A stretch of 64,000 nucleotides of DNA. It comes from Cyathus striatus (Eukaryota; Basidiomycota; Agaricomycetes; Agaricales; Nidulariaceae). Positions within the stretch are counted from its first letter, which is position 1. Every line of letters starts with the position of its first letter. Location of the stretch: assembly GCA_025738555.1 (NCBI GenBank), contig JAOVFP010000018.1:806001-870000 (forward strand), read 5' to 3'. Positions 2,115 to 48,900 of this stretch are shown piece by piece. Made by a program: the position numbers and the translations under genes. The notes under the pieces were generated by a model. The model was not told the DNA's origin and made no database searches. It was given only the letters and a program-made list of their open reading frames with translations.

Positions 2115-3160
2115 CTTTAAGAACAAGTCTTGGGAAAGCACTCACGTTCTAGAGATATTTGACCTTAGTCTAGCTAGTTATTCAAAGTGAGCATCTATTG
2201 CACAAGTATAATACTAGTTATTATGTAAGAACTGTTTATAAATTGCAATATGCTCCACTGTATGGTCCGTATCTGTGGCACCGACCTGTAAAGTATAAAT
2301 TTTGAGCAATTTTCAAACATCGCCTGAGACTCTGTCCGCACGTCGGTGTACAGCGGACACAGCTGGTGCGGGCACATTATTTTCTTGCTCTTCTAGCGCG
2401 TGTCTGTACGCGTGGGATTGCAACTCGTAGTGGTACCCACTTTAAAATAGGGATATGTATCGTCCACTTGTAGGACTCGCTGATGAACTGGAAGTTCCAA
2501 ACTGCCACTATGTCTCCTCTGCCCCGCGTATCCCTCTGCTGCTGGCTGCTTCCCTAACTGCTCCTCCTACGTGTGCTCACACCATACCGCCTATGAAAGA
2601 AGCCCATATCCTCCACCTGCTCCTGCTCCTCATCGTCGACAGTGACAGTGCTGGTCCTTCTTGTCTTGTGAATGGCAGGGAAGCAGCAGCAGCCGGGGTC
2701 GGTGTAGGAGCCAAAAAAGGAGCGGGGTTGTGTCATTTGGGCTTGGACAAGTGGGTGAATTGTGAGAGTGGGGGGGGGGGGGGGCGGGAAAGTGAAGAAC
2801 ACGACCTATTGCACGTCCGAGGTGAGAGTTGGAAAGGTGTCAATGGGACTGGGACTTGGCAAGTCGGACTTGGTTAACAAGAAGAATATGTCACACTATT
2901 TTCTAGAGAGTTCAACCGAAGCCTCTGATAAAGGAAGAGCATCTCGAAGGGAGTTCTCTCCTGCTTCATCGACATCACCGAGGGAGAGGCAAGAGCACCC
3001 ATACGACGCCGTAGCCTCCAATGCGAGGTATCAAGAACACGAGAGGTGGTACGTGATGCATCTGATGCATCAGTACCTGAGCACCCACTATAAACAGAAG
3101 GTCAGTGGTGTCGATGGGCATTGAGGATGAGCGCTACAGCACGTGTGTCGATACAAATCC
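2115..3160. other. Stretch without a recognisable gene; 15-base G run
   Basis: I see no convincing gene. Open frames between 2455 and 3124 are compositionally biased and cross a run of 15 G at 2770-2784 (on the minus strand this encodes polyproline). Nested short inverted repeats lie near 2335-2375 (GTCCGC...GCGGAC and CCGCAC...GTGCGG). Confidence 0.4.
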
Positions 3161-3164
3161 AGCC

Positions 3165-3640
3165 TCGTCGACAGTCTCTATGCAATACTTAACAGGCTAG
3201 AAAAGGTTGGGTTGAGTTCGAGCGGACGCGGAGCAGTCGAGCCGCTGGGCGGGTGGGAACTGCTCCGCGATTTTTCCCGAAATCACGTAGAGACCAAGTA
3301 ATCCATAGATTAGCAAAATTTATCAATTCCATTAACCATTAAGCCGTTCACAATTCAATTAAAAATGTTTACTATCCATGAGTCTGCAAGCTAAGCTAAA
3401 CTATAGGCCCTGATATATGATGCCAGGGTCCTCTCAAGATATCTATTAGGTTCATTATGAAGCTGGGGATTAGGGAGGGAGGGATATAAAATAAAATAAG
3501 CTTGAGACGATGAATAATGAAGAGCAAAAGAGCGAGTGTGTGTGCCAATGGTGGTCGATGAGAGGAGGACCACCCATAGCCGAGACCTCGCTCAGCTGGA
3601 CGTCAGGTGCCGGATATGTGCGTGGCCGGCACCCTTACTC
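3165..3640. repeat. Dispersed repeat family A, copy 1
   Basis: Shares long stretches with 44025-44540. Examples are GGAGCAGTCGAGCCGCTGGG then CGGGTGGGAACTGCTCC, a flanking AAATCCAG...TCGTCGA block on the left, and GAGACCT(C/T)GCTCAGCTGGACG on the right. The two copies are colinear but diverged and have no coding potential. This is probably an old non-autonomous transposable element. Termini and target duplications could not be fixed by eye. Confidence 0.6.
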
Positions 3641-3967: not shown

Positions 3968-4822
3968 TCAGTTGGTGCCCAGTCTACTTATCATACCATA
4001 CAATCCAATGCTATAAAGGCAAGTTGTACTCGCTCCATAGTTGCTCTCCACTTTGACTACAACTATGTCTACCTTGCAATCCAGCGCCGCCGTCGATTCC
4101 CAATAATTCACCCACGTAGATGTATACACATCAAACTCGGCAACCACCATTTGTACAAAAGATTTTGTTGACTTCACCATCTCCTCCCAGCAACGAGAGG
4201 AGCTGCAAAACTTCTTCGGGCTAGCCATTTCAACATTGGTTTTAGACCGAAGAGTGTTGGCTTCTTCTTTATTCACCAAACCCCACAAAGATATTTGCTT
4301 GGGTGCCTGCGTAATTTCTTCTGCGGAGACTGCGCTCGAATCGACGTAAGCAATCGTAAAATTATTTACACGAATTGATTTTGGTAGCTTAATGGCAACA
4401 TGCCCAGAAGCTCCTTGAAAACTCCAGCACTTGTCCATGCTTCCCTGTAGAATTATTTCAGGCGATACGATATTAAATTTATTTGGAGGCTCAGCCTTAA
4501 ATATTGTGAAACGAGTGTCGATGGGCCTTAGTTCATGTGTAGAGGTTGTCAACTCTGGTATAATAATCCCGTCCAGCACGAGGTTTTGTCTTGTTACCAG
4601 CTTCTCGCCATTGGAGAGGAAATGATTGAAGACGAAACCATGAAAATTGTCTGTTAGTTCCGAGCAGAGATCTACTCCTTCAAGGTCTGATATCGTGTAT
4701 GGACACAGCAGCTGCACGGTGGTGTATGCTGATATCTTCCAGGTACCTGTGAGGAAAGCCATGAAGATAATGATTGCAGCTTTTAGACCCCTCTTTCCAT
4801 GAAGAAAATTTTGACGTCGCAT
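3968..4822 (-). CDS. SUN-domain protein
   Basis: Single open frame of 284 aa with an ATG at 4822. A hydrophobic segment lies at about residues 13-30 (AAIIIFMAFLTG), which fits one membrane anchor. The C-terminal half is a SUN domain: CWSFQGASGHVAIKLP at about 132-147, an FTIAYVDSS strand, the QISLWGL motif, and the closing KVESNYGASTTCLYSIGLYG block at about 260-280. SUN proteins bind KASH peptides in the nuclear-envelope lumen (LINC complex); a minority act in the ER or cell wall. It is short for the family and lacks a long coiled coil before the SUN domain, so trimerisation would have to be supplied otherwise. The promoter lies towards 4830-5040. A fragment of its last exon is duplicated at 12640-12745. 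Confidence 0.85.
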   Translation of the reverse strand: MRRQNFLHGKRGLKAAIIIFMAFLTGTWKISAYTTVQLLCPYTISDLEGVDLCSELTDNFHGFVFNHFLSNGEKLVTRQNLVLDGIIIPELTTSTHELRPIDTRFTIFKAEPPNKFNIVSPEIILQGSMDKCWSFQGASGHVAIKLPKSIRVNNFTIAYVDSSAVSAEEITQAPKQISLWGLVNKEEANTLRSKTNVEMASPKKFCSSSRCWEEMVKSTKSFVQMVVAEFDVYTSTWVNYWESTAALDCKVDIVVVKVESNYGASTTCLYSIGLYGMISRLGTN

Positions 4823-27548: not shown

Positions 27549-30382
27549 CTACTGAATCATAGACCGGTATTTACAAAAGTTAGGATGATTGTCTTCAAGA
27601 AACTTTTCGCACTGCCCCTCTACAGAAGCGAACAGCTTTCGAGTTGCACATGAGCCATTCATTCTTGATTTCCAGGTTCCCACTCTTATAGGAACACCAC
27701 GTTCGTCTTTTACTGATGGGTTATTAAGGTCCTTAACCAGACGAACGAAGTTATTTTCCCGGTAGTCTATCCATCGACCATAGTTTTCAGGTGAAGTTTC
27801 AAATGCATGGACAGATGGGAACCAAGAATATCATCCATTTGGAGTGGCAGAATTCCCTGCCTACAGATCAGTAGGTGTACAAATACTGTGAAAAAATTAT
27901 TACCGTTATGACAGAAATATGCCCCCAACAGCATGTCTAATTCATCGTGAGAAAGATCATCATCAATGTACTCCTCATTGCTTGCAGGATCTCTAGCAAT
28001 AAACATTCTTTTTTCATCATCATAGATACCTGTTGGGCCATCCAGAACTTGCTGTACAGTTACAATGTTAACAGCTAATTGCCAAAGATAGCCTCCCCTC
28101 AATAAAGCTGCCCGGGAACGAGGTTGGAGAAGAAGTTCATTTCTTTGGGCGGCGTACACATTGTAATCCCTTATACTAAATATATATCCAGGTGGCCGGA
28201 TAGGAATTGTGTAAGTCGTATGAGCTCGCCTTGGGGCTTTTTCACAAATTGATCTGGAACATATTGTTTGAAATTGAATACCCCTTTCTACCAAGTACTC
28301 AGCAATTTGAACATCTGTCATATTTGCTGGAAGCCGGCATAATATTAAAGCATCTCTAGCAGTGGATACTCCTATCTTCCAACACATTGTAGCTTCTGTC
28401 CCCAAATCCAAGACGTATAAAGGTCTAGTTGCTTTGGTTTCCTTATCGTTGTGCGTTAAGAATCTCAGGTTAGAGAACCTTGAAGTACTGGAAACTGACT
28501 GCGAGTAGGGAGCCAAGTCATAGCCAGGGATAGAAGGAAGACTGCCCTTTGAATCTCCCCCTTGCAGTTTTGTGAGGAAGTCCATACAGATGGCAATGAT
28601 TGGGCTGTTCGCTGATTCCCCTTTATTGTCTAGCATACCCAAGACTCTTAAGAAGAGGTGTCTATTTTTTTCCTCGCCCTTGCAGGAAGCAAGACGAGCC
28701 GAAGAAGGAACTGTGAAGCCAAAATGCAGATACAGTAGATAGAGAATTTCTTTGTCCAAGGAGGATAGCTGTACTCCAGGTACCTGCATTAATGGGTTGG
28801 AAAAGCTTGGAGACCGAGATCGTTTAGATTGTGGAAATGGAGCAGGGTTGATGGATGTAGATGAGATGGTTCCTGGGGACGGAAGAACCTCTGGGTTTGT
28901 GGACGTAGGAACATCCTGCATTATCGGGAATGTGGGAGGCAAAACATCTTCTGGTATTGAGGATGATTCCAATGGTTGTAGACATAAACGTTTAGCAGCC
29001 GGTTCATTAGAATCAATAGATGGACAAGTGGGTTGAACAGCAACTTCAGTTGAGTCGTCGATATTTATGAGAGGTATCATGGAACCTCTAGCTTGTACAG
29101 CCTGTGCTTTAGATACTTCAGATTGATTGTTGCCAACATCAAAGAAGGTCTCTGCATCATCCCTAAGCATACCAAACTCTTCTGCACAATCCCATTCATT
29201 CCTTCTAGGATTGTAGATGGACGCGAAATCTCCATAGTCATATAGAGTGTCTTCTCTCTCCGCTTTGAATACCTCCTCTCTCCACCAAAGTCCTGATCCA
29301 TCATCCCTCATTACCCAGACAAAGACTTGGGCTGATACTGTAGGTTTTAGACGCTGCCGGCTTAAACGCCTTTGCCTCTCCACAGGTGATTCTGTTTTAA
29401 TACATTCGACATCAGCTGCTTCGAGTCTCGAAACGAATTCCCTAGGAGATATATCAAATGTTTGATGTGGTCGTTCCTGTGATGATCTTTTCGTTTGAAG
29501 CCCGATATATTCAGTTGTTTCAGGGGAGCTTGGATATTTGAAAAGATAAGTTTCAGCTTCTTGAAGTTGGTAGGGAAGAGGTGCCAGGCCCGCTAGATCG
29601 GGGTTCGATCGCTCCACTGATCCCCATCTATACCATACAGGTACCCTGAATCTACAAAACCACTCAACGTCCATTTCAGTATATTTCTTGTGATTAAGGT
29701 CGAAGTATATGCCAACCCTTGGAGTGGAGGTCGAAAAAGAGTAGACCACACTCCATCTTAGCATATCAATGTCGTGCTGAGAGAAGTGACCGGCCTTCAT
29801 GAGCACTGAACACCAATTGCTAATAAAGTTGGCATTGCCTTTCCTGTAATCTTCTGTTTCCGAAAAAGCGATTATATAGGAGAAAGCTCCTATCCAAACA
29901 GAGAAAATATTTCTCAATGACCTAGTGGCGAAAATGGCATTTTTCAGGTTTGTCGAACATTTATCATAACGGCCAATAATAGAAGGGAATGGACAGTCTA
30001 TGAAGTGGCTGTAGTGCTTTTGCAACTCAGAGATTCCATCTCAAAGATGCATATGTAGCACTTCCCATTGTGCAATTAGATCAATATCCATATAATATCC
30101 AATCCCATTGAAGCTTCCTGGACTGCCGTAGCAGAACTTGATAGAGCTATCATGCAAACACCGCAAGAAATAACTAGAATAGTCAGTGTTAATTGAAATG
30201 AAACTCGTCCAGTCCCCTCGACCACTGTACGAGCGAGGTTGGAAGATAGCAGATGTTTCACCCATTTGGAATACTGTTCGAATGTCGGTGTCTTGCCTGG
30301 GAGGAAGCTTGATGTTTCTATTAGTATTTGGAGAGTAGTATATGTCTCCATTGATGATCTGAACACCACCATTTCGTTTCAT
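27549..30382 (-). pseudogene. Large conserved basidiomycete protein of unknown function, with two in-frame TGA codons
   Basis: ATG at 30382 (MKRNGGVQIINGDIYY). The frame stays open to about 27910 except for TGA at 30043-30041 (HMHL*DGISELQKHYSHF). Conserved-looking blocks are TPRVGIYFDLNHKKYTEMDV, EWFCRFRVPVWYRWGSVE, NPDLAGLAPLPYQLQEAETY, a Ser/Pro-rich linker with KRSRSPSF, and RRAHTTYTIPIRPPGYIF to LSHDELDMLLGAYFCHN. After an intron near 27860-27905 a second frame carries YSWFPSVHAFETSPENYGRW, GVPIRVGTWKSRMNG, ending at TAG 27551-27549; a TGA (27833-27831) sits directly before YSWFP. With CGA in both places the whole gene would be open. I recall this as a frequent multi-copy mushroom family without known function. 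No catalytic motif is apparent. Confidence 0.65.
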
Positions 30383-30770: not shown

Positions 30771-31957
30771 TAGCTAACTCACTTATTTCAAGATATTGTT
30801 GTATGCATTTTGGCGAAGCTCACGAAGTGGCATGGGTATTCCCATACACTTCAAGCCTAGTCGACAGGCATCAAACCAATCACGTACTCGCTACTCAGTA
30901 CTCTGTCGTTGGCTCCTCATGCATTTGGTTGCACAGAGTTGAGCTCAATCCCGTCCGTGTTCGTCCATGTTGTGTTCCGACCTACTACGTATACGTTTAT
31001 GCATCCTTTGCAGGTTACTCATTTGGGATAAAGGCCCTCCCTACCACATCTGGTATGATGGTGACATTTATGATACGGTGTTTAGACATTGATCAATTCA
31101 TTTCTAGATCATTTTGTATACATTTTGACAGAGCTCACGAAGTGGCATGGGTACTCCCACACACTTCAAGGCTAGTCAACAAGCATCAAATCCCTCTGCT
31201 ATTCCTGCAAGATCACTCCTTCTCTCTTTGGGATGCTGTTTTAACTCCTGCACGACCCACCGCTCAAATAAAATGGAATCTCTAGTTATGTCGCAAGGCG
31301 GGGATTGTTTTCGGTATTTCATGAGTCAGTTTGGATGTTGCAATTAGAAATGCTTATGCTTGCACTATTGTTTGCTACAGTGGCAGGAAGATTGTAATGG
31401 GATTGAACTTTACGCGACCCGAGATGTCTCCAGTAGTAGTTATATGGCCTTCGGATGCCAGGCTAGTTAGTGCGTTGGTGGCCCACTTGCACATACTACC
31501 CATATTATGTATTAAACCTATTAGATGTGACACCACTGTTCCTGATGCGACTCCCGCGCTTTGTTCAGCCCGGCGTCGTGCAGAGTTGATTCCATCTGAC
31601 GGTGTTGAGCTTCACTTGCTTACACTATAACGATGTTGCTCATTGAGGACAACCGCAGGCATCAAGCTCCATCCTGCCGCTTTTATTCTCAATCCTACCA
31701 AGGTGCTCGTACTGCGATATCATGCGGCAATCCCCGCAAGACACGAGGCGACTAGTTATCCATCCATGAAAGGAGCCACTAACTGGCTTTGTTGGATCTC
31801 CCTTTCCTTCACTGTAACCATCACCATCTTTCGTTATCGAGACTGTAGTGCAAACCATAACTATGATATTGACTCGTTCTGCCAAAGTATGTCCTGTGCC
31901 ATCACCGTAGTGCTGTATGATTGTTAAAATGTGGTCACAGGTGGCCCTACAAGAAGG
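30771..31957. other. Non-coding region with a 95-bp direct duplication
   Basis: 30788-30885 and 31100-31200 are diverged copies: TTTTG(G/A)C(G/A)(A/G)AGCTCACGAAG, TGGCATGGGTA(T/C)TCCCA(T/C), ACTTCAAG(C/G)CTAGTC and GCATCAAA. Open frames crossing them are not gene-like. Confidence 0.45.
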
Positions 31958-32206: not shown

Positions 32207-32882
32207 TGTCACGTCCCGTTCCAACTACTAAGGGTTGAACAACGAAGAAGGGTCTAACGATGAGAGAGCACGTAAGTAAACGGCTCGGGGGTAACGAACA
32301 AAGTACGGGAGTAATGGAACGTTGGCTTCAACTTATATGTTGCGCCCCTTGAACTTCTCGTTCCGTATTTAGAAGAAGGCGGAGCTGATGCTGATAACTC
32401 GGAGTTGGAACAAGTCCCAAGCGAAGGAAAGGGTATTAACGTAGTTGATTCGAAACTGTAGTCTACTTACAATATAGAGTAGTTTATATAGTATTTACTT
32501 TGTCCCGGATGCGGAGGGAGTTAGTGTCTATGGGTTTGTGGCATACTGAGGGATAAGTAACTCCAGAGAATGTAGACTACAGTAGACTAGTTTCACGCCT
32601 CTAGATTACAGTCAACGTATAACGCCGATAGTTACGGTGATGACGAGGAACGGGGTAAAACTAATGGGGACGGGAGTTATAGAATGAACTAGAAAGAATG
32701 GAAAGGCATAGAACGAATAGTAGTAATAAAGGGAAGGGACAAGTAAACAATGACAAGTAAACATTAAGTAAGTAAGAGTTCCTTTTATAACAAACGTATA
32801 CAGTCCGGAGGAAACGTACAATCCTCGGATGAAAACATAACAGACTTGCGTCGGTCCTATGGGCTTTGTCACGGATATGACA
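32207..32882 (-). repeat. 3' LTR of the chromovirus
   Basis: 676 bp, TG...CA ends, over 99 percent identical to the other LTR. The side facing the internal region is preceded, in element orientation, by a purine tract. Confidence 0.95.
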
Positions 32883-32885
32883 GTA

Positions 32886-32895
32886 TCCTCCCTTT
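32886..32895 (-). promoter_or_regulatory. Polypurine tract
   Basis: Minus strand AAAGGGAGGA, 3 nt from the 3' LTR, in the position where plus-strand DNA synthesis is primed in LTR retrotransposons. Confidence 0.6.
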
Positions 32896-33052
32896 AAGGC
32901 CGAGCCTCGAGGCCTTGAGATCGGATAAGAATAGTTTAAACTTTGCACGTGCCTCGGCACTAAATCCTAGAGCCGAAATATAAAGGCGGAGAAATCAGCG
33001 AGTGTTCAAAACATAAAATCGCAACCCATCAACTCCACTTCGCTTAGTAAGC

Positions 33053-34839
33053 ATGCCTCCTTCTACGTCGCTGTTCCCGTTCTCCCAGAAAACCTATCTC
33101 CGGAGGAACTTAAGGAAAAACTTTGGGAGAGTTACCAAGCACGTCTTCGTGATCAGACTCCAGCGACGGCGTTGGGACAAAGCGAGGGAGTTACTGAGAC
33201 GATTGGAAAGGAACAGGGGGAGAAAACTGAGGACGAGAGCGACGACGAGGATGATGAGAAGGAGGAAAGTGACGAGGTCATGGTGAAGAAGGAGTATGGT
33301 GGTGAGGAAGAGTTGGAGGGTTCTGATGAGGAGGGGAAGAGGATGAAGATGACGACGATGGAGAAAGTACCCGTAGCAAGAGCAACAACGCCGACGATCC
33401 CGACGATCTGCCCATCCTGCCTAACGAAGAGGATAACGCCGGACAGGATATGGATGTGGAGGGAACTTTGGCTGAGAGCCAAACGTTGAGGACTCAAGAC
33501 ATGGATGTCGACCCTCCAGCTCAGGAGGAAACGGGCGAGAGTATTTTGGACCGGGTGCGCAATATTTATCTCCAGCGCACAAGGGAAGCTCCTGAGACTA
33601 CAGCCCAGCGCGATGCTCACTTTGCCCAAGCGAGGGCAGAGTATGAGGGTGTAGTCACAAGGTTTGGAGTCGAACGTTTTCGCCAGCAGGATCTAGCAGT
33701 AGCCTTACAACTTCACAGAGAACAGGACGAGGCCATCTTTAGTATCCCGGTGAAGCCATCGCGTCCGGTGTTGGCTGTGGTTCATGACGCGGCGGTGGTG
33801 ATGGGAGTCTCGGAGGTAAGTAGGGTTCTGCCGGAGCAAAACTCAAAAATAACTTCTACTCAAAAGGTAGGAGATCACTTTCACCGTTTTGGCCGGGCTG
33901 TTCAACGTTTGAACCAGGACATCGAGGAGCGTAGTCGTACTGATACGCCTGTGATCGAGATGGGAGAGGCAGAGGGTAGAGGCGAACCGGAACAAACGAA
34001 CGTCGAACCGGAAGAAGTGGCAAGTAACCAGTCTTCGCCTGCCAGGCCGCCTCTCAAGCGTCCACGTACCGGAACTGGCCCCAAAAGGGCTAGTAGGCCT
34101 CGAGTCAGTGGTCGAGCACGTGGTCGTGGCCGAGCTGCCACTCGAAGTTCAAGGGCGACCAGCAAGGCCACTATTGAAGATTCTGACGAAGAGGCAGACG
34201 GGGAAAATGTTAGAAATGACAATAACGCCGAACACGAAGATGATGGTGAAGCGTCGAAGGGGAATACAGTCGGGGAAGATGAGTCTGAGCCGGAGCAAGT
34301 AAGAGGCAAGGGTAAGGCGAAGGGAAAAGGTAAAGGCAATGAAAAGCCTAGGATACCGCCTTGTTATCTTGAGCCGGTGGATCGATGCCCAGAGTGCGAG
34401 AAGAGGGGCTTATCGCCTTGTATAGTCAACGTCAAGTAAGTCTCTTTTTGTTTTACCTAACTCCGGAACTAATGGTCTTCATAGCGGCAAAATCACCAAG
34501 GGAGTCCGGGCCTGCGATTATTGCAGGGTACACAAGGCCAAGTGCTTTGAAGAGCCTCTTACCCGTGGCCGTGTATGGCCAGTAGAGGAAGGACCCAATG
34601 GCTCTGGGAGCTCGTCTGGGGGATCTTTTCCTCCTGACGCTCTTGAAGCCATCCGGAACTTGGTGGAAACGAACAAGGTCAACTCGGAGTTAGTGAGAGA
34701 GAATTCGGCGTTGATGAGGCAAGCCATGGGTGTATGGGAATCGATTGCAGAGAGGTTGGGAACATTGCTGAGTGCAATGCCTGGGGCTGATACTTCGGCG
34801 GAGATTGATGAATCCGGAAGTGAAGAAGAGGAAGAGTGA
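33053..34839 (+). CDS. Antisense accessory gene of the chromovirus, with zinc-cluster-like motif
   Basis: Runs opposite to gag-pol, between integrase and the 3' LTR. ATG at 33053. The frame carrying EELKEKLWESYQARLRDQ and a Glu/Asp-rich stretch gives way near 33335 to the frame EEDEDDDDGESTRSKSNNAD that continues to 34435; two frame changes (near 33080 and 33335) mean introns or indels. A clean 49-nt intron (34436-34484) joins CPECEKRGLSPCIVNV in frame to GKITKGVRACDYCRVHKAKC, giving Cx2Cx7C plus Cx2Cx6C. The second half copies the start of a fungal Zn2Cys6 cluster. Other parts are an acidic region, RGRGRAATRSSR basic segments, KGKAKGKGKGN, a C-terminal leucine-rich helix and a Glu tail. Probably a nuclear DNA-binding protein. 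Its role in the element is unknown. Confidence 0.7.
34436..34484 (+). other. Spliceosomal intron inside the antisense gene
   Basis: GTAAGTCTC at 34436 to ATAG at 34481-34484. Splicing restores the zinc-cluster-like frame. It can persist because it is antisense to the genomic RNA that is reverse transcribed. Confidence 0.7.
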
Positions 34840-34964: not shown

Positions 34965-37900
34965 CTATGGTGTGTCTGGGCTGGGCTTATCAGGGTATTT
35001 AGAATGGAACTCCTCGATAAGTTCAACAGCGTGCTCTAGCTCTGTGGCAGCTAACCAAGTTAACTCTTCATCGGTGCCTTCATATCCAGACCAGCGGACC
35101 AGATAACGAAGTTTACATTTGCACCGACGATCTAACTTGGAGTCACAAATTTCACTGACTTCGTACTCGATGTCGCCATCAAGTTCCACTGGAGGCGGCG
35201 GAGATATTTCTCGTTCAGGGAAAGGATTTTCTGTGGCTGGCTCGAGCATAGAGACGTGGAAGACAGGATGTACTGAACGAAAGTTCGTGGGGAGGCGTAA
35301 GGTACGAGAGTGGGATCCAGTCTCGGCAATAATCTCATATGGACCATAATACTTCTCAGCAAACTTTTTTGCGGGACGAGTAGTTTTAAAGAACTTAGCG
35401 CGGACAAAAGCCTTTGTTCCAACCTTGAACTCCGGAGCTGGCAACCGACGGTTGTCTGCTCCAACTTGATAATGCTTTTGAGCAAGTGCTATTTCAGTTT
35501 TGAGGAGCTCGTGAAGTTCTTGGAGGTCAACGGCAAATTCCCGTGCTTTAGCTGCAGTAACGTCTCGTTCCGGATGAACTGTTATTGCTGGATGATAACC
35601 CTTGTTGGCGAAGAAGGGGGTTGTATTAGTGGTCGAGCTCGGTGTATTATTATACGTGAACTCAGCGAGAGGGAGTAGAACGGCCCAATTATCTTGCTGG
35701 TAATTGCAGTATATTCGAACATACTGTTCTAATACTTGGTTGATCCGTTCTGTTTGTCCATCGCCCTCTGGGTGGTAACCAGAGGTAAAGTGTAACTTCA
35801 TGTCAAGCACTTTGCCTAATGAACGAAAGAAGTGAGAGATGAATTCTGAACCTCTGTCAGAAGTAACATGTCCTGGAACACCATGTTTAGAAAAACGTGC
35901 AAGACAAAGAGTTGAGCGAGTTGAGCGGAGGTGATGGTGTTATAACAGGGAATGAATATTGCCTGCTTGCTGAAACGATCTACAACGACCAGTACGGAGT
36001 TATACTCTTCTGAACCGGATTTAGGCAGCGTCTCGATGAAATCCATGGATATTGAACTCAAGGGCGAGCCGGAATTGGAAGTTGTTTCAATGTGCCATAG
36101 GGTCGATGTCTTTGGGGTTTAGATCGCATGCAAGTTGTACAGGACTTACAATAATCCTTGATATAAGTACGTAGTCCAGGCCAAGTATATTCACGCCTAA
36201 TGATGGACAGGGTCTTGTTTTGACCGGGGTGTCCAGCGAGGATGTGATCGTGCTTGTACTGAAGAACGCGAAGGCGAAGGGAATTGTCATTGGGAACATA
36301 GATACGTTCGTCGAGACGGAGTAATTTGTCCGTTCCGACTGACCAACGACCAGTGGGATCTCGGAGATGAATAGCAGCAACGGTGTCAGTAGGTTGAGCG
36401 ATCAAGATATCATGATGAAGTTGCTCAACGTCCATAACCATGCTAGCTCCGAGGATGGGTAGAAAGAGAATAGTAGCTCGCAATGAAGTAGTAAGTTGTT
36501 CTTGAGTGAAAACTGGCCTAAAGTTATGCGGATTGACTTTGGCATAGTCGTTATCCCCCTCTTTAGGATAGACGTCCCAGCGTCTAGTTAAAGCGTCTGG
36601 TTTAGCTCCGAGTTTCCCCGGACGAAAACGAATAACTAAATTGAATTGAGAAAGAGACTCTGACCAACGAGCTTGACGGCGAGTAAGAATTTTGGTGGTA
36701 GAAAAGTATTCGAGGTTCTTGTGATCTGTGACCACGTCGATTGGAATACCTGAACCCTCCAAGTAATGCCGCCATACTTTAAAAGCTTCGAAGATAGCTA
36801 GGAGTTCTTTGTCATGGGTGTCGTAATTTAACTCCGGGGCAGTGAAGGTCCTGGAGTGGAATGCTATAGGGTGGATATCGCCATCGTCAGCGATGATAGA
36901 GAGAATAGCTCCTAGTGCATAGTCTGAAGCATCGGTCTCTACTATAATCTGCGCATCTGGCACCCAGTGTGTAAGCACTGGAGCAGTACTGAAAGCATCT
37001 TTCAGATGTTTGAACGCCGCACGGCATGCGGGGGTAAAATCCCACTTCAAACCCTTTCGGGTAAGACGTGTTAACGAAACGACAATATCCGAATAATCCC
37101 GGATGAAACGTCGATAGAAATTGGCGAAGCCAAGGAAAGACTGAACGTCTTTCACTTTTCTAGGCTCAGGCCAATCCTGAATCGTTTGGACTTTGTCCTT
37201 AGACATTGTGAGGCCGTACGGAGAAAGAACGTAACCGAGGTACTCAACAGATTCTGTGTGGAATTCACACTTATCCGCCCGGGCATAAAGACCATGCTTC
37301 CGTAATCGACGCAAGACTTCTTTAACGTGTCGACGGTGTTCCTCGATGTTATTTGAGTAGATAAGGATGTCATCGAGGTAAACTATTACGCACACGTCAA
37401 GTAAATCTTTGAAGATATCGTTCATAAAACGTTGAAAAGCTGCCGGCGCGTTGGTAAGTCCAAATGGCATTACTAGCCATTCAAAAGAGCCATAACGAGT
37501 GCGAAAGGCAGTCTTCCATTCATCTCCGTCAGTAATACGGACAAGATGGTAAGCGTGGCGAAGGTCGATTTTAGAATAAATTCGAGCCTTGCGAGGGCTA
37601 TCAAGGAGGTCGGCAATGAGAGGGAGAGGGTACCTGTCCTTCTTGGAGATGGCATTAAGTCCACGAAAATCGACACAAAGCCGAAGTGAACCATCCTTCT
37701 TCCGGACGAAAAGCACTGGTGCCCCGTGCGGAGAACGTGAAGGACGTATAAAGCCAATGCGAAGATGTTCGTCTATGAACTGTCGCAGTGATCCAAGCTC
37801 GGATTGAGAAAGAGAGTACACCGTACCAACTGGAGGGGCAGTGCCCTCATCCAGGTTGATTTTGAGATCGTAAGGACGGTGTGGAGCAAGTGTATCTGCT

Positions 37901-38426
37901 CGGGTTTTGCTGAAGACGTCAGCAAACTCGTGGTATTCCGAGGGAACATTAGAAAGGTCAATGGTCTCTGTGGTCATAGCAGCAGCAGCAGACGCAGAGA
38001 CTACAGCACCGAGATGTATCCTGAAGGTTTGAGACCCTTCAAGTTTGCTAGCTCTAAGAAACGCGGCAGCGTTGATCATAGAGATGCTCGGAGGTGGAAG
38101 TGAATCCGACGGAGGAAATGATGGCTCATCTGGTGAAGTATGTGGCAACGAAGGAATATCCTTCGGAACAGGGGTCGACGGGAGCGGAGTAGATTCTTCT
38201 GTAGCAGTGGTTTGGAAGCGAAGTATGCGTCTCTGTACCCAGTCAATCAACGGATTGTATTGGGTGAGCCAGTTAAATCCTAGAACCACGGAGCAAGAAG
38301 AATCAAGCGGAGTCACATATAGTGCAAGGGAAATACATTCACCAGATGGAAACGTTACAGGTAAATTTATACACTCTGTAAGCATAGAATTTGTGGTGCC
38401 GTCAAACAGTCGTAATGCTATCGGGG
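34965..38426 (-). CDS. pol: pol: rest of protease, reverse transcriptase, RNase H, integrase, chromodomain (frameshifted)
   Basis: The largest frame (38385-36058) has the RT core (CVDFRGLNAISKKDRYPLP, MPFGLTNAPAAFQ, VIVYLDDILIYS), RNase H (VETDASDYALGAILS, VTDHKNLEYF) and the integrase HHCC zinc finger (HILAGHPGQNKT, CKSCTTC). A one-base shift at about 36060 moves into the frame with SMDFIETLP (first integrase Asp). A second shift in a T run at about 35900 moves to the frame with HVTSDRGSEFISHF (second Asp) and PEGDGQTERINQVLEQYV (catalytic Glu). The C-terminus is a chromodomain (LRYLVRWSGYEGTDEELTW), which in chromoviruses directs integration to marked chromatin. Stop at 34965. All catalytic motifs are present but spread over three frames. 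Confidence 0.93.
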
Positions 38427-38654: not shown

Positions 38655-40355
38655 TTACAAGGACCGCGCTCTATTTTTTGAACTCCCTTTCTTGGGGCTC
38701 AACGAGGCAGACGCCTCGGGGGAAATAGCAGCTGCATGGGCTCTTGCAGCTGTGGAGGTAGCCTTGCGGCAATCCTTGGCCATGTGGCCAGGCCTGGCAC
38801 AAAACAAGCAGAGCTTGTTATCCAAGCGACGCTTGCGTTCCTCTGGGAGTAACTTGCCATCAGGCCCAAGCTTACCAGTTAGGTCAGGAGCCTGAGAGGC
38901 AGGAGGCCTAGGTTGGCTCCTGTTGGGTCTGTGGGGCGAAGAACCAGAGGAAGTGCTGGGAGGGTTTATCCGAGCAGTACTAGAGGTTGAGGCCGCCGGC
39001 CTAGAGGGAAACGTTCCCCAGCGCTGATTACTAGCAGCCGGAGGAAAGGTCCTCGTAGGCGGAGCAGGAAGCTTATGGCGCCTTTCCTCAATGGAACGCT
39101 CAGTGTAGCGCTCCCAGTGATGCTGATCGAAACCTTGGGCCAAAGCCTTCATGGGTTGAAGGGATTCGGGTCGAGGGATTTCCCTACCCGAGATCTTGTC
39201 CTTAATGCGTGGACAGAGACCGTAGTAGTATTGCGAGGTGAGGGAAGGATCGTCCCAGTTCAACAAGGTAGCGTACTTGTTGAAATCGATTTCGTACGAA
39301 GTGATGCGATGGTGGTTTTCCATCTTCAATGCACGAATCTCTAATTCAGCTTCTGCGCGCGGGTTAGTTTGACCGAAATGAGTCCGGAGCAAACTAACGA
39401 AAAAGAGCCAATCGTCCATCCAGCGCTCATAAACGTCCTCGTCGAGGTGCGTACTAAACAACGCCCCTGCAGCTCCCCTGAGGAAAGTCAAAGTATAATC
39501 GACTTTCGCCTGGTCACTGTTGTAGAGATGGGGGTTGTTTCTAAAATTCAAGCGGCACTGAGTCAAGAAAGCATCTAGCTTGTCGGTGCTAGAGCCATCA
39601 AAAATATCAGGCGCGTGAACTTTCTTGTCGCGTGGTGAAGGAGGGGGAGGTGGTCGTTCCATGATGCGCTCTACAATGGTAGTGAGAGCGCCGACCACAT
39701 CCTCTCCATCATAACGGCGTCGACGAGAGTGGCGTGAGGATGCGCGAGATGAGCCATGAGATGAGGGAACAGAACCTCCATTTGGGCCAGGTCCTCCAGG
39801 AGAAATTCCTCCAGGGCCTGCAGGATCATTGTGATCCGAGGGAGGTACTTCATCCTCGACATCGCCAAACTGAGAATCATTATCAGAGGGCTCATGATTG
39901 GAGCCGTCATCAGAAGGTTCATAACCATTGCCCCCGTTGCCATTATCTCCTGGTGGTGGTGGTGGCGGAGCGCTCCCAGCACCTGAAGGTATAGGTGCTT
40001 TAGGGGGTGCTAGAACCGGAGTTGTAGCTCGTGGGTCGGAGTCAATGGTGGCATGTGGGACGAGTGTCGGGTCAAAAGGAAATACTAATGGCATAGGTCG
40101 GGCAGTGCTGACGTACTCGAATGCTGGTTGCAGCACACGTTGAGCGCGTCCGGCCGAGATGGGAATTCTTGAGACCAATGCACTGGCCGATTCCGGAACA
40201 GGAGAACGAGAGACAGAAAGAGGCCTAGGGACGGCCGGAGTACTGGTGGCAGTAGCAGATTGCTGTGAAGCCAAACGGTTACTGCGTCGGGCTTGCAGTG
40301 GAACAGTCCGCTGCTGGTGACTGCGTTGGTGTGCAGTTTCAGTACGTGTAGCCAT
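38655..40355 (-). CDS. gag: gag polyprotein
   Basis: ATG at 40355, 566 aa, intact. The N-terminal third is low-complexity (Ser, Pro, Gly; basic near the start). The capsid region follows: VHAPDIFDGSSTDKLDAFLT, QAKVDYTLTFLRGAA and ERWMDDWLFFVSLLRTHFG, which match the retrotransposon gag family. A C-terminal CCHC zinc knuckle CLFCARPGHMAKDC (about residues 518-531) would package RNA. It ends at TAA 38657-38655. Confidence 0.93.
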   Translation of the reverse strand: MATRTETAHQRSHQQRTVPLQARRSNRLASQQSATATSTPAVPRPLSVSRSPVPESASALVSRIPISAGRAQRVLQPAFEYVSTARPMPLVFPFDPTLVPHATIDSDPRATTPVLAPPKAPIPSGAGSAPPPPPPGDNGNGGNGYEPSDDGSNHEPSDNDSQFGDVEDEVPPSDHNDPAGPGGISPGGPGPNGGSVPSSHGSSRASSRHSRRRRYDGEDVVGALTTIVERIMERPPPPPSPRDKKVHAPDIFDGSSTDKLDAFLTQCRLNFRNNPHLYNSDQAKVDYTLTFLRGAAGALFSTHLDEDVYERWMDDWLFFVSLLRTHFGQTNPRAEAELEIRALKMENHHRITSYEIDFNKYATLLNWDDPSLTSQYYYGLCPRIKDKISGREIPRPESLQPMKALAQGFDQHHWERYTERSIEERRHKLPAPPTRTFPPAASNQRWGTFPSRPAASTSSTARINPPSTSSGSSPHRPNRSQPRPPASQAPDLTGKLGPDGKLLPEERKRRLDNKLCLFCARPGHMAKDCRKATSTAARAHAAAISPEASASLSPKKGSSKNRARSL

Positions 40356-40408: not shown

Positions 40409-41083
40409 TGTCACGTCCAGTTCCAACTACTAAGGGTTGAACAACGAAGAAGGGTCTAACGATGAGAGAGCACGTAAATAAATGGCTCGGGGTAACGAAC
40501 GAAGTACGGGAGTAATGGAACGTTGGCTTCAACTTATATGTTGCGCCCCTTGAACTTCTCGTTCCGTATTTAGAAGAAGGCGGAGCTGATGCTGATAACT
40601 CGGAGTTGGAACAAGTCCCAAGCGAAGGAAAGGGTATTAACGTAGTTGATTCGAAACTGTAGTCTACTTACAATATAGAGTAGTTTATATAGTATTTACT
40701 TTGTCCCGGATGCGGAGGGAGTTAGTGTCTATGGGTTTGTGGCATACTGAGGGATAAGTAACTCCAGAGAATGTAGACTACAGTAGACTAGTTTCACGCC
40801 TCTAGATTACAGTCAACGTATAACGCCGATAGTTACGGTGATGACGAGGAACGGGGTAAAACTAATGGGGACGGGAGTTATAGAATGAACTAGAAAGAAT
40901 GGAAAGGCATAGAACGAATAGTAGTAATAAAGGGAAGGGACAAGTAAACAATGACAAGTAAACATTAAGTAAGTAAGAGTTCCTTTTATAACAAACGTAT
41001 ACAGTCCGGAGGAAACGTACAATCCTCGGATGAAAACATAACAGACTTGCGTCGGTCCTATGGGCTTTGTCACGGATATGACA
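40409..41083 (-). repeat. 5' LTR of the chromovirus
   Basis: 675 bp, TG...CA ends. In element orientation it contains TATATAAA (40691-40684) and the predicted RNA start near 40658. Confidence 0.95.
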
Positions 41084-45913: not shown

Positions 45914-48900
45914 ATGGAAGAGCACTCTGAAGCAGTGCGACATGGTGAGTATTATTGTTGTTAGATATCACGTCAAAGTGCTACAGCTGTGTTATTTGCT
46001 TCAAAAGCCGGTGGTACCTCGTCCACCGAGCATTCTTTGCCTGCAAAAACAGGTACATGGAAAGGAGGGTTTCGTAAGGGAAATTTTCGATACAATCCCC
46101 TTGTGCAACAAGGTTTCAAAGCCAACGATGGTACCAAAGCCCATGCCATCAAGGAAAAATGGCGTAACAGAACATCGAATAGGGTCGTCCTGTCTGATGT
46201 TTCTGAAGAAAATGCTGATGACGGTGGTGAGTTTGTAGGTGAAGGCACTAGTGGTAAGACTCTCCATATTTTCAGTTTCCGACCTCTGATCTAAAATAGT
46301 GCTTATACCAGATTGTCCACACTTCGATAATGTTGATGAATCAGCGGGGGAGTTTCTTCAGCATCCTCTTCTTTTGTCGGAAGCTATTCCGGCCAGCTGT
46401 GGTAAATGGCGAGACCCAGAAGCGGGAAAGGCTAAGAGTTACAGATACAACCCCTTGGAATCGAAGAGAGAGAGAGGTAGCCCAGAAATGGACATAAATG
46501 CTTTAGTTGGAGTATCCGTGAAAGCAAAGGCTGGTGCAGCGAAGGAAAGGAGGGAATCTCTTCATGATCGAGAAACCGTGGCTGGGAACCACAGTGATAA
46601 GTTAAACAGGTTTATATCTTGTTCTAATTTTCATTCATTGATCTAAAAACATCAGTAGTCACTCACTCTTCCTCTGGTGATGCCGAAGAAGCGGTTGCAA
46701 CTTACCCTGTACCTGGAGGCAATCAGGGAAAAATTGCAGATGCCTCTGAGACTGGGACGGGAGGTAAAGAAGGTATGCACCTTCATTTATTAGTTTTCAT
46801 TATCGTCCAAGCTAAGACCATACCAAATGGTAACAAAGTCTCAGAACAGGATGCCATCAGAAGGAAGCACTGTACACGAAGATCGAATAGGGTGGTCCTG
46901 TCTGATGTTTCCGAAGAAGATGTTGATGACGGTGGTAAGTTTGTAGGTGAAGGTATTAGTGGTAAGACTGCTCATACTTTCAATATTCGTCCTCTGGTCT
47001 AAAATATTGCTTATACCAGATTGTTCCCACATCGGTGATGTTTATGAATCAGGGGGGGAGTCTCTTCAACATCCTCTTCTTTTGTCGGAAGCTATTCTGG
47101 CCAGTTGTGGTAAATGGTGAGACCCAGAAGCGAAAAAGGCTAAAAGTCGCAGATACAACCCCTTGGAATCGAAGAGAGAGAGAGGTAGCCCAGAAATGAA
47201 CATAAGTGCTTTAGTTGGAGTATCTGTGAAGGCAAAGGCTGGTGCAGCGAAGGAAAGGAGGGAATCTCTTCATGATCGAGAAACCGTGGCTGGGAGCCAC
47301 AGTGGTAAGTTAAACATATTTATTTCCCATTCTAAATTTCATTCATTGATCTAAAAACATCGGTAGTCACTTACTCTTCCTCTGGCGATGCCGAAGAAGT
47401 GTTTGCAACTTACCCTGTACCTGGAGGCAATCAGGGAAAAATTGCAGATGCCTCTGAGACTGGGACGGGAGGTAAAGAAGGTACGCACCTTCATTTATTA
47501 GTTTTCATTATCGTCCAAGCTAAGGCCATACCAAATGGTACCAAAGTCTCAGAACAGGATGCCATCAGAAGGAAGCACCGTACACGAAGATCGAATAGGG
47601 TGGTCTTGTCTGATGTTTCCGAAGAAGATGCTGATGATGGTGATGAGTTTGTAGGTGAAGGCACTAGTGGTAAGACTGTCCATATTTTCAATTTCCATCC
47701 TCTGGTCTAAAATATTGCTTATACTAGATTGTTCCCATGTTGGTGATGTTTATGAATCAGGGGGGGAGTCTCTTCAACATCCTCTTCTTTTATCGGAAGC
47801 TATTCCAGCCAGCTGTGGTAAATGGTGAGACCCAGAAGCGAAAAAGGCTAAAAGTCGCAGATACAACCCCTTGGAATCGAAGAGAGAGAGAGGTAGCCCA
47901 GAAATGAACATAAGTGCTTTAGTTGGAGTATCTGTGAAGGCAAAGGCTGGTGCAGCGAAGGAAAGGAGGGAATCTCTTCATGATCGAGAAACCGTGGCTG
48001 GGAGCCACAGTGGTAAGTTAAACATATTTATTTCCCATTCTAATTCCATTCTTTGATCTAAAAAATATGTGTAGCTAGTCACTCCTCTGGCGGCTTTGAA
48101 GAGGCGGTAGTTAACTCCTTCCAAAATGCCCTTCCCTTTGCTGTATGTGAAGGCGATCAGGACAAACTCGTGGATGCCAGTGAGACTGAAACGGAAGGAG
48201 AAGAAGGTACACATTTTTCATTTTCATTTTCATTCTCAATAATTTATGTGGTCCAAAGGGCATATTAGTAAGGGAATAGCTAGAGCCAAAATACCAGATA
48301 CAGTTGCCCTTCCTAACACAGAGCTTGTAGGTGATGAATGTAGAGGTAAGAATGTCCTTTGTTCTGATTTCTGTCTTCTGTCCACTGACCCAAAAATACA
48401 CCCATACCAGATTCCTCCTCCCTTGGCGATGGTGTTAAAATTCAAGATAACACTTTCAGAGATCCTCTTCCCTTCAGCGTTAGGGCTGAAGATGATATCG
48501 AAAGTGAAGTTAAAGGTACAAGAGAATCTCTTAACTTCCAGATTAGTTATTAATTATGAGTACCTAGCAGATCAGCCACTTCATGTTATTGATGAAGAAG
48601 AGAGCTTTATGCCCTTGTCAGTTGTAGGCCACCCAGATGACATCTCAGAAGACAGTTTGGTATATCGTGCTACCCTGCCACGCCGTCTTAGTTTGTATTT
48701 CTACTTGTCACGGTCTATAGGAAAGATACTAACACTGCTATCCTAGTCACCCAGCCATACATGAATAAGAAACAAAATAACTCCCTGGCTGCCTCACATC
48801 GGAGATGGAAGCTAAACGGTACCAGTGTGGGCAGAGATTCACGGAACTATCCTTTTAGATTTAAAAAAAAGATAAAACCTGTTCCTTTCGCATCACTTAA

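Follow-up and report, generated by a model that had tools for sequence, protein, structure and literature searches.

Why should a retrotransposon carry, on the strand opposite to its own genes, another gene that is interrupted by an intron, and what might such a gene do? The question is raised by a stretch of 64,000 nucleotides from Cyathus striatus (contig JAOVFP010000018.1, positions 806,001 to 870,000), here called the window, in which an earlier note had described an antisense, intron-bearing gene with a permuted zinc-cluster-like motif.

The minus strand of the window holds a chromovirus with paired LTRs, a polypurine tract (PPT) and a target duplication. The LTRs are identical at 672 of 677 aligned positions (99%), and the 5-bp duplication CTCGC flanks both LTR ends. 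The hallmarks of a Ty3/Gypsy chromovirus (reverse transcriptase, RNase H, integrase and chromodomain) are all found as Pfam matches above the cut-off. The parts of the element, and of the gene on the opposite strand, are as follows.

32207..32882, minus strand: 3' LTR, paired by its identity to the 5' LTR; left flank CTCGC
32883..32900, minus strand: PPT region adjoining the 3' LTR
32979..32986, plus strand: candidate TATA box of the antisense gene, TATAAAGG, 67 bp 5' of the ATG; a consensus match only
33053..34839, plus strand: full extent of the antisense accessory gene, which has an open frame in the sister copies on C11 and C21 and relatives in element groups A, C, D and E
33053..34435, plus strand: exon 1, with an acidic N-terminal part, a basic stretch and the first Cys triplet CPECEKRGLSPC (Cx2Cx7C)
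34436..34484, plus strand: intron of 49 bp in phase 2, running GTAAGT...CATAG and containing a branch-like CTAAC; predicted from sequence signals
34485..34839, plus strand: exon 2, with the second Cys triplet CDYCRVHKAKC (Cx2Cx6C; Zn_clus match), a long predicted helix and an acidic tail
34965..35810, minus strand: pol ORF piece with the integrase C-terminus, SH3-like domain and chromodomain (SH3_Tf2-1 and Chromo above the Pfam cut-off)
36058..38385, minus strand: pol ORF piece with reverse transcriptase, RNase H and integrase zinc-binding domain (Pfam RVT_1, RT_RNaseH, Integrase_H2C2)
38655..40355, minus strand: gag ORF of 566 aa (Pfam Retrotrans_gag, E 5.7e-8)
40409..41083, minus strand: 5' LTR, 99% identical to the 3' LTR; right flank CTCGC

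The antisense gene thus lies within the interval bounded by the PPT and the integrase stop at 34965, and the layout of the element bears out the earlier claim of a gene opposite gag-pol, between integrase and 3' LTR. The intron proposed at 34436-34484 between the Cx2Cx7C and Cx2Cx6C triplets likewise holds, as judged from its signals and its phase. One point has to be corrected, namely the reading of the gene straight on from position 33053: the window copy has a frame break near the 5' end of exon 1, and the frame of the ATG at that position does not reach the rest of the exon. The defect belongs to the window copy and not to the family, which has intact members: exon 1 is open in the C11 and C21 sister copies, where it starts with MPPFYV. 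Pol of the window copy is also broken into separate ORFs, while the C11 and C21 copies have an open frame of 1285 aa.

Other features were noted in the window as well. A 300-nt repeat occurs three times at 46170-47885, with a spacing of 708 bp and 88-89% likeness between the copies, and at 30785-30875 and 31100-31190 there is a direct repeat of 91 nt whose two copies are 86% alike and separated by 315 bp. A 752-aa ORF preceded by a 113-aa ORF (27767-30382, minus strand) looks like one host or mobile-element gene.

A search of the genome (107 Mb, 24 contigs) with exon 1 of the window returned 51 rows, made up of nine rows for near copies (group A) and 42 at 25-32% identity. An integrase C-terminus 74-85% identical to that of the window lies on the opposite strand in 20 of the 21 distant loci fetched, the sole exception being L029, where it was not found. 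Element groups were defined by integrase identity to the window, in a scan that scored 138 of 824 candidates together with 20 further places.

Group A: the window family; gene present
Group B: 91-97% integrase identity to the window (eight loci fetched); gene absent
Group C: 73-86% integrase identity; gene present
Group D: 70-73% integrase identity; gene present in half of the listed copies
Group E: 68% integrase identity, two loci; gene present
Group E2: 69% integrase identity, two loci; gene absent

The position and orientation of the gene are the same in groups A, C, D and E of this one genome. Among the matches listed, exon 2 lies downstream on the opposite strand for all 68 integrases assigned to group C (median gap 340 bp), and the 34 assigned to group D divide equally into 17 that match most of exon 2 and 17 that match its last 42-71 codons only, with no match in reverse orientation; both sets were hand-picked from the 138 rows by identity and end point. 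Genome searches with exon 2 gave 103 rows for group C, 153 for group D (many of them relics) and 28 for group E (most with stops). For 29 of the 103 group C rows no nearby integrase was seen among the matches listed, which can be explained by the scoring of just 138 of the 824 integrase candidates. An LTR pair and a target duplication were read in one element each of groups C, E and B, and in the single D element examined the LTRs match at 96.7% and no target duplication was seen. TATA-like boxes between PPT and ATG, again consensus matches only, were also seen in two elements of group E and in one each of groups C and D.

Two observations concern these elements more generally. A GGCCGAGCC(T/A)CGAGG-like stretch beside the PPT (window 32883-32913) is common to groups A, C and E and looser in B and D; it has homologous places in L041, L050, L054 and L057, in gene-bearing and gene-less elements alike, and is perhaps a cis signal of the element. 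Furthermore, L039 (C5:6459900-6465900) and L040 (C21:663500-669500) are 99.7% identical over nearly 6 kb, element flanks included, and judging by this likeness they are a recent duplication between contigs or part of a larger repeat.

A phase-2 intron of 46-51 bp with donor GTAAG or GTGAG and acceptor AG separates the two triplets in groups A, C, D and E, and the introns of group C contain CTGAC or CTAAT branch-like signals. It was recovered by pattern in 36 of the 40 loci tried, corresponding to 35 places as L015 and L017 are one (28 of 30 loci in the first set, not L013 and L014; 8 of 10 in the second, not L058 and L051). One exact spliced junction of the main group C type is matched nowhere in the genome, against 30 matches for a donor-side, intron-bearing pattern; this is a comparison and not a census, as the patterns are unequal in length and reach. 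These counts agree with the earlier view of a retained intron, and would fit a gene that was never copied via its own mRNA. Its persistence can be explained by the antisense orientation: in the genomic RNA the intron is present as its reverse complement and is no substrate for splicing.

The antisense gene is under purifying selection as a protein in group C. Over 210 pairs from 21 copies exon 1 has a median dN/dS of 0.30, and exon 2 has 0.22 over 224 pairs from 22 copies, with every counted pair below 1, although the pairs are not independent and recombination inflates dS in exon 1 (median 0.55, versus 0.11 in the adjoining integrase piece). The same integrase piece has a dN/dS of 0.21 (22 copies). 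Pairs with dS >0.03 were counted (210/210 for exon 1, 224/231 for exon 2), exon 1 had to exceed 300 nt (L029 is too short), and coding parts were ended at the first stop, so that decayed ends are uncounted. In the other frames dN/dS is about 1 or more, excluding the mirrored frame, which has third positions in common with the gene and gives 0.40 (exon 1) and 0.31 (exon 2), above the plus-frame values of 0.31 and 0.21 in the same comparison. A gene on the sense strand is ruled out by these higher mirrored-frame values and by 91 + 34 stops in all, the plus frame being stop-free by construction and the mirrored exon 2 being without a stop in some copies. The earlier note had staked its reading on dN/dS below 1 in related elements; the values of 0.2-0.3 in group C, on which this was run, are in line with it.

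Alignments indicate that the protein changes fast between groups: the antisense proteins of A and C are about 30% identical, compared with about 85% for their integrases. Between the A and C proteins and that of D, hhalign recognises similarity only at the cluster and its surroundings (probability 92%, E 6.7e-7), the resemblance of A and C to the E protein is weak (E 0.002, probability 14%), and no similarity between the D and E proteins was recognised by hhalign. The homology of the E gene hence rests on its place, orientation, intron phase and layout.

Group C also has a mosaic structure. The divergence scan covered 18 of the 23 group C loci (from L018-L038 and L057, without L024, L029, L030, L034 and L058), and mean pairwise divergence, in L057 coordinates, is 0.03-0.06 from 4838 into the integrase, 0.08-0.15 across most of the LTR, 0.19-0.35 in the first part of exon 1 (3138-3538) and 0.23-0.25 around the first triplet and the intron (4038-4237). 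The last segment exists as two types (5 and 13 copies) with sharp edges, 40-44% apart and about 10% divergent within. The smaller type has its intron and triplet in common with the L024/L029 subfamily, so the mosaic is most simply explained by recombination of subfamilies with an end point close to where exon 2 begins. Across the 18 loci the first-triplet type is not correlated with LTR distance (Spearman -0.02) or integrase distance (-0.12), and the idea that the type tracks the LTR is hence not supported.

The six-cysteine pattern is present in 34 of the 36 predicted spliced products, and the products of the other two (L048 and L054) are frame-shifted or cut by a stop. It was met in 0 of 20000 shuffles for each of five spliced products, and in the L010 product six of the seven cysteines lie inside the motif. 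With the first half of its profile, Pfam's Zn_clus hits the second triplet in A (profile positions 1-13, E 0.0017) and in C (1-15, E 0.0071); with the second half it hits the first triplet in D (17-33, E 0.013), and the other five of the eight pieces, those of E included, have no match. All of these scores are under the Pfam cut-off of 21 bits (9.6 and 13 bits for whole proteins, 16-18.8 bits for pieces). The Zn2Cys6 domain (PF00172) has the spacing Cx2Cx6Cx5-12Cx2Cx6-8C with its basic half first. Group D fits this spacing (linker 9), while C has a linker of 13, A has Cx2Cx7C and a linker of 14, and E has Cx2Cx11C; the basic half is second wherever the profile matches, E being without a match. 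Among solved chains Gal4 is the best for the second triplet of A (E 0.07), and when solved structures were searched with a whole C protein or with the cluster of D, no meaningful match appeared. The order of the profile matches in A, C and D therefore upholds that part of the earlier claim in which the halves are swapped, while membership in Zn2Cys6 is not established because the motif stays under the Pfam cut-off; a swapped Zn2Cys6-like cluster is supported by these similarities, not proven. A helix of 48 residues is predicted after the cluster (residues 50-97 of the folded piece; pLDDT about 79-93, whole-model mean 70.7) in a model of window exon 2 alone from a single sequence. The protein also has basic stretches, and an acidic tail after the predicted helix.

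The integrase tree, with six database integrases as outgroup, has the form ((C,(A,B)),(E,(E2,D))), where the fork joining E to D/E2 has support 84/83, B has 93/87 and the other named forks, except D alone, have a bootstrap of at least 97. The simplest reading of this distribution is that the gene was ancestral and was then lost repeatedly, although an independent gain is conceivable for E. In group B it is about 940 bp from the end of the integrase to the outer edge of the 3' LTR, of which the LTR itself makes up about 610 bp, and a relic of the last codons of the gene is seen in four aligned loci (L039, L041, L043 and L045). In the two E2 loci the integrase is followed by about 800 bp, again counting the LTR, in which there is no ORF of this kind. 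The 3' end of the gene is retained beside the integrase stop in gene-less B loci, in L051 and in 17 of the 34 assigned D elements, as if this end were hard to lose; L051 retains the TATA-like box also. The gene is not needed in cis, because gene-less copies include young ones (a B element has LTRs with four mismatches in 611), and it turns out to be dispensable in several lineages. More than half of the differences of near copies from the window are changes of CpG to TpG or CpA (103 of 188 in L004, 116 of 211 in L005 and 131 of 235 in L007), and the E copies are rich in TGA stops; this decay suggests cytosine methylation.

A database of 5.8 billion proteins gave no relative of the gene at E 0.001 when one A protein was aligned with three from C as the query (7987 candidates examined), nor at E 0.01 with four aligned group C exon 2 sequences (7980 candidates examined). 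The database does contain mushroom sequence: with the integrase C-terminus of the window as a control it gave 3807 relatives, the closest at 72% identity, and those that carry a name come from Trametes, Cyclocybe, Pisolithus and Paxillus. The protein may evolve too fast for the exact-word filter, intron-bearing genes of this kind may be ill-predicted, or the range of the gene may be restricted. Viral contigs contained no relative of the window integrase.

On balance we lean towards an old, selected antisense accessory gene of a chromovirus clade, whose product is predicted to be a nuclear DNA-binding regulator acting in trans on its own element family. An mRNA would start from a TATA-like promoter that belongs to the gene and sits between PPT and ATG, and only the spliced message would bring both halves of the six-cysteine zinc cluster together. 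The protein would then enter the nucleus, dimerise by the helix after the cluster, bind DNA via the basic second half of the cluster (the halves being swapped relative to Gal4) and control transcription of its family, much as has been proposed for gene23 of Grande or HBZ of HTLV-1. We infer transcription, splicing, zinc and DNA binding, nuclear action and the target from the place of the gene, its intron phase and dN/dS, the TATA-like boxes, the similarity to Zn_clus and Gal4, the helix, the basic and acidic stretches and the antisense genes of plants. Against such a regulator stand the motif under the cut-off, the first-triplet type that is independent of the LTR, the absence of the gene from B, from E2 and from half of the D copies listed, and the lack of any homologue found outside this genome. 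In addition, no CGG/CCG triplet pair, as is typical of Zn2Cys6 sites, is common to five LTR-to-ATG regions. A more far-reaching form of the proposal is tentative, and probably claims too much: a clade-wide, splice-dependent and selected transcription factor with a swapped-half cluster may have been lost repeatedly in lineages that then lived off others, and reshuffling of exon 1 and the first triplet may diversify its DNA-binding specificity. If true, the specificities would diversify much as expected where element families compete with one another or with their host.

Other functions have to be weighed against a transcriptional regulator. VANC proteins serve as anti-silencing factors of VANDAL transposons, and by analogy the product may bind element DNA and keep cytosine methylation or heterochromatin off its own family. 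Methylation pressure is likely given the CpG decay in L004, L005 and L007, and a DNA-binding-like motif with fast divergence between groups would agree with such a role; gene-less B and D copies are, however, also numerous and partly young, unless they are served in trans, and we regard this as a fairly unlikely function. That the protein instead binds nucleic acid to help nuclear import, integration or packaging, and not transcription, seems quite unlikely: the gene-less elements transpose and the motif offers no pointer to RNA binding or packaging, even though the zinc motif and the basic and acidic stretches would suit such a helper and accessory roles are proposed for such proteins in passages of PMC7264820.

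Two further explanations do without a working protein. The antisense transcript itself could pair with the genomic RNA and feed small-RNA silencing, as antisense transcripts are discussed as sources of dsRNA in the same source (PMC7264820, passages). A protein is nevertheless required by the dN/dS of 0.2-0.3, compared with about 1 in the non-mirrored frames, and by the conserved Cys pattern and intron phase, which makes this highly improbable. The broken exon 1 of the window copy and the lack of any relative among 5.8 billion proteins could also point to a chance ORF or a dead captured host fragment. This is hardly credible at all in view of four element groups with the gene, an identical intron phase, purifying selection and the 0 of 20000 shuffles. 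Returning to the proposed trans regulator, the function of an antisense retroelement gene becomes directly testable here, owing to the DNA-binding-like motif, an intron whose removal would report expression cleanly, the many related copies with and without the gene within a single genome and the codon-level evidence that the protein matters.

Compared with Zn2Cys6 factors such as Gal4 (PF00172), the predicted product is alike in its six cysteines in two Cx2Cx6-7C-like triplets, its one basic half and the helix that follows, and it differs in the opposite order of the halves, a score under the Pfam cut-off, an intron-split motif and its location in a retrotransposon. It is thus a candidate for a swapped version of a DNA-binding domain that is very common in fungi. 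The word 'permuted' was absent from the matches listed in a literature search on zinc clusters. HBZ of HTLV-1, in the passages that describe it, is similarly an antisense-encoded nuclear regulator toward the 3' end of a retroelement. The mRNA of HBZ is spliced. However, HBZ is a bZIP protein with a promoter in the 3' LTR, whereas the candidate promoter here lies outside the LTR and no bZIP family is among the Pfam matches up to E 10 of one A and one C protein.

A search by titles, abstracts and a few passages, with most subscription papers outside its reach, found no report of antisense genes in basidiomycete elements. Zhao et al. in 2011 are said to have described brtn as an additional antisense gene of Boty-like Gypsy elements in Botrytis cinerea. 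Passages of several papers likewise state that Boty of Botrytis carries the antisense gene brtn (PMC7264820, PMC8365987, PMC4227169, PMC5987419). Compared by these descriptions only, brtn resembles the present gene as an antisense gene in a fungal Gypsy element with gag-pol and chromodomain, though its host is an ascomycete. Antisense genes of Gypsy elements have long been on record with no function assigned (PMC7264820, passages). In plants, gene23 of Grande has a nuclear product, its own promoter and an unknown function (PMC7264820, passages), and DNA binding is predicted for TRP28 of Retand (PMC11963269, passages); the literature thus agrees with the earlier statement that antisense ORFs are known in some plant Gypsy elements. 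As far as these passages go, gene23 and TRP28 are like the present gene in place, orientation and presence in most copies of a family, and they have other domains, with no intron mentioned in the passages on TRP28 (PMC11963269). Antisense genes at this place are therefore already known from plant Gypsy elements and from brtn, and the present gene is a variant of them, in which a conserved intron splits a six-cysteine cluster and the host is a basidiomycete.
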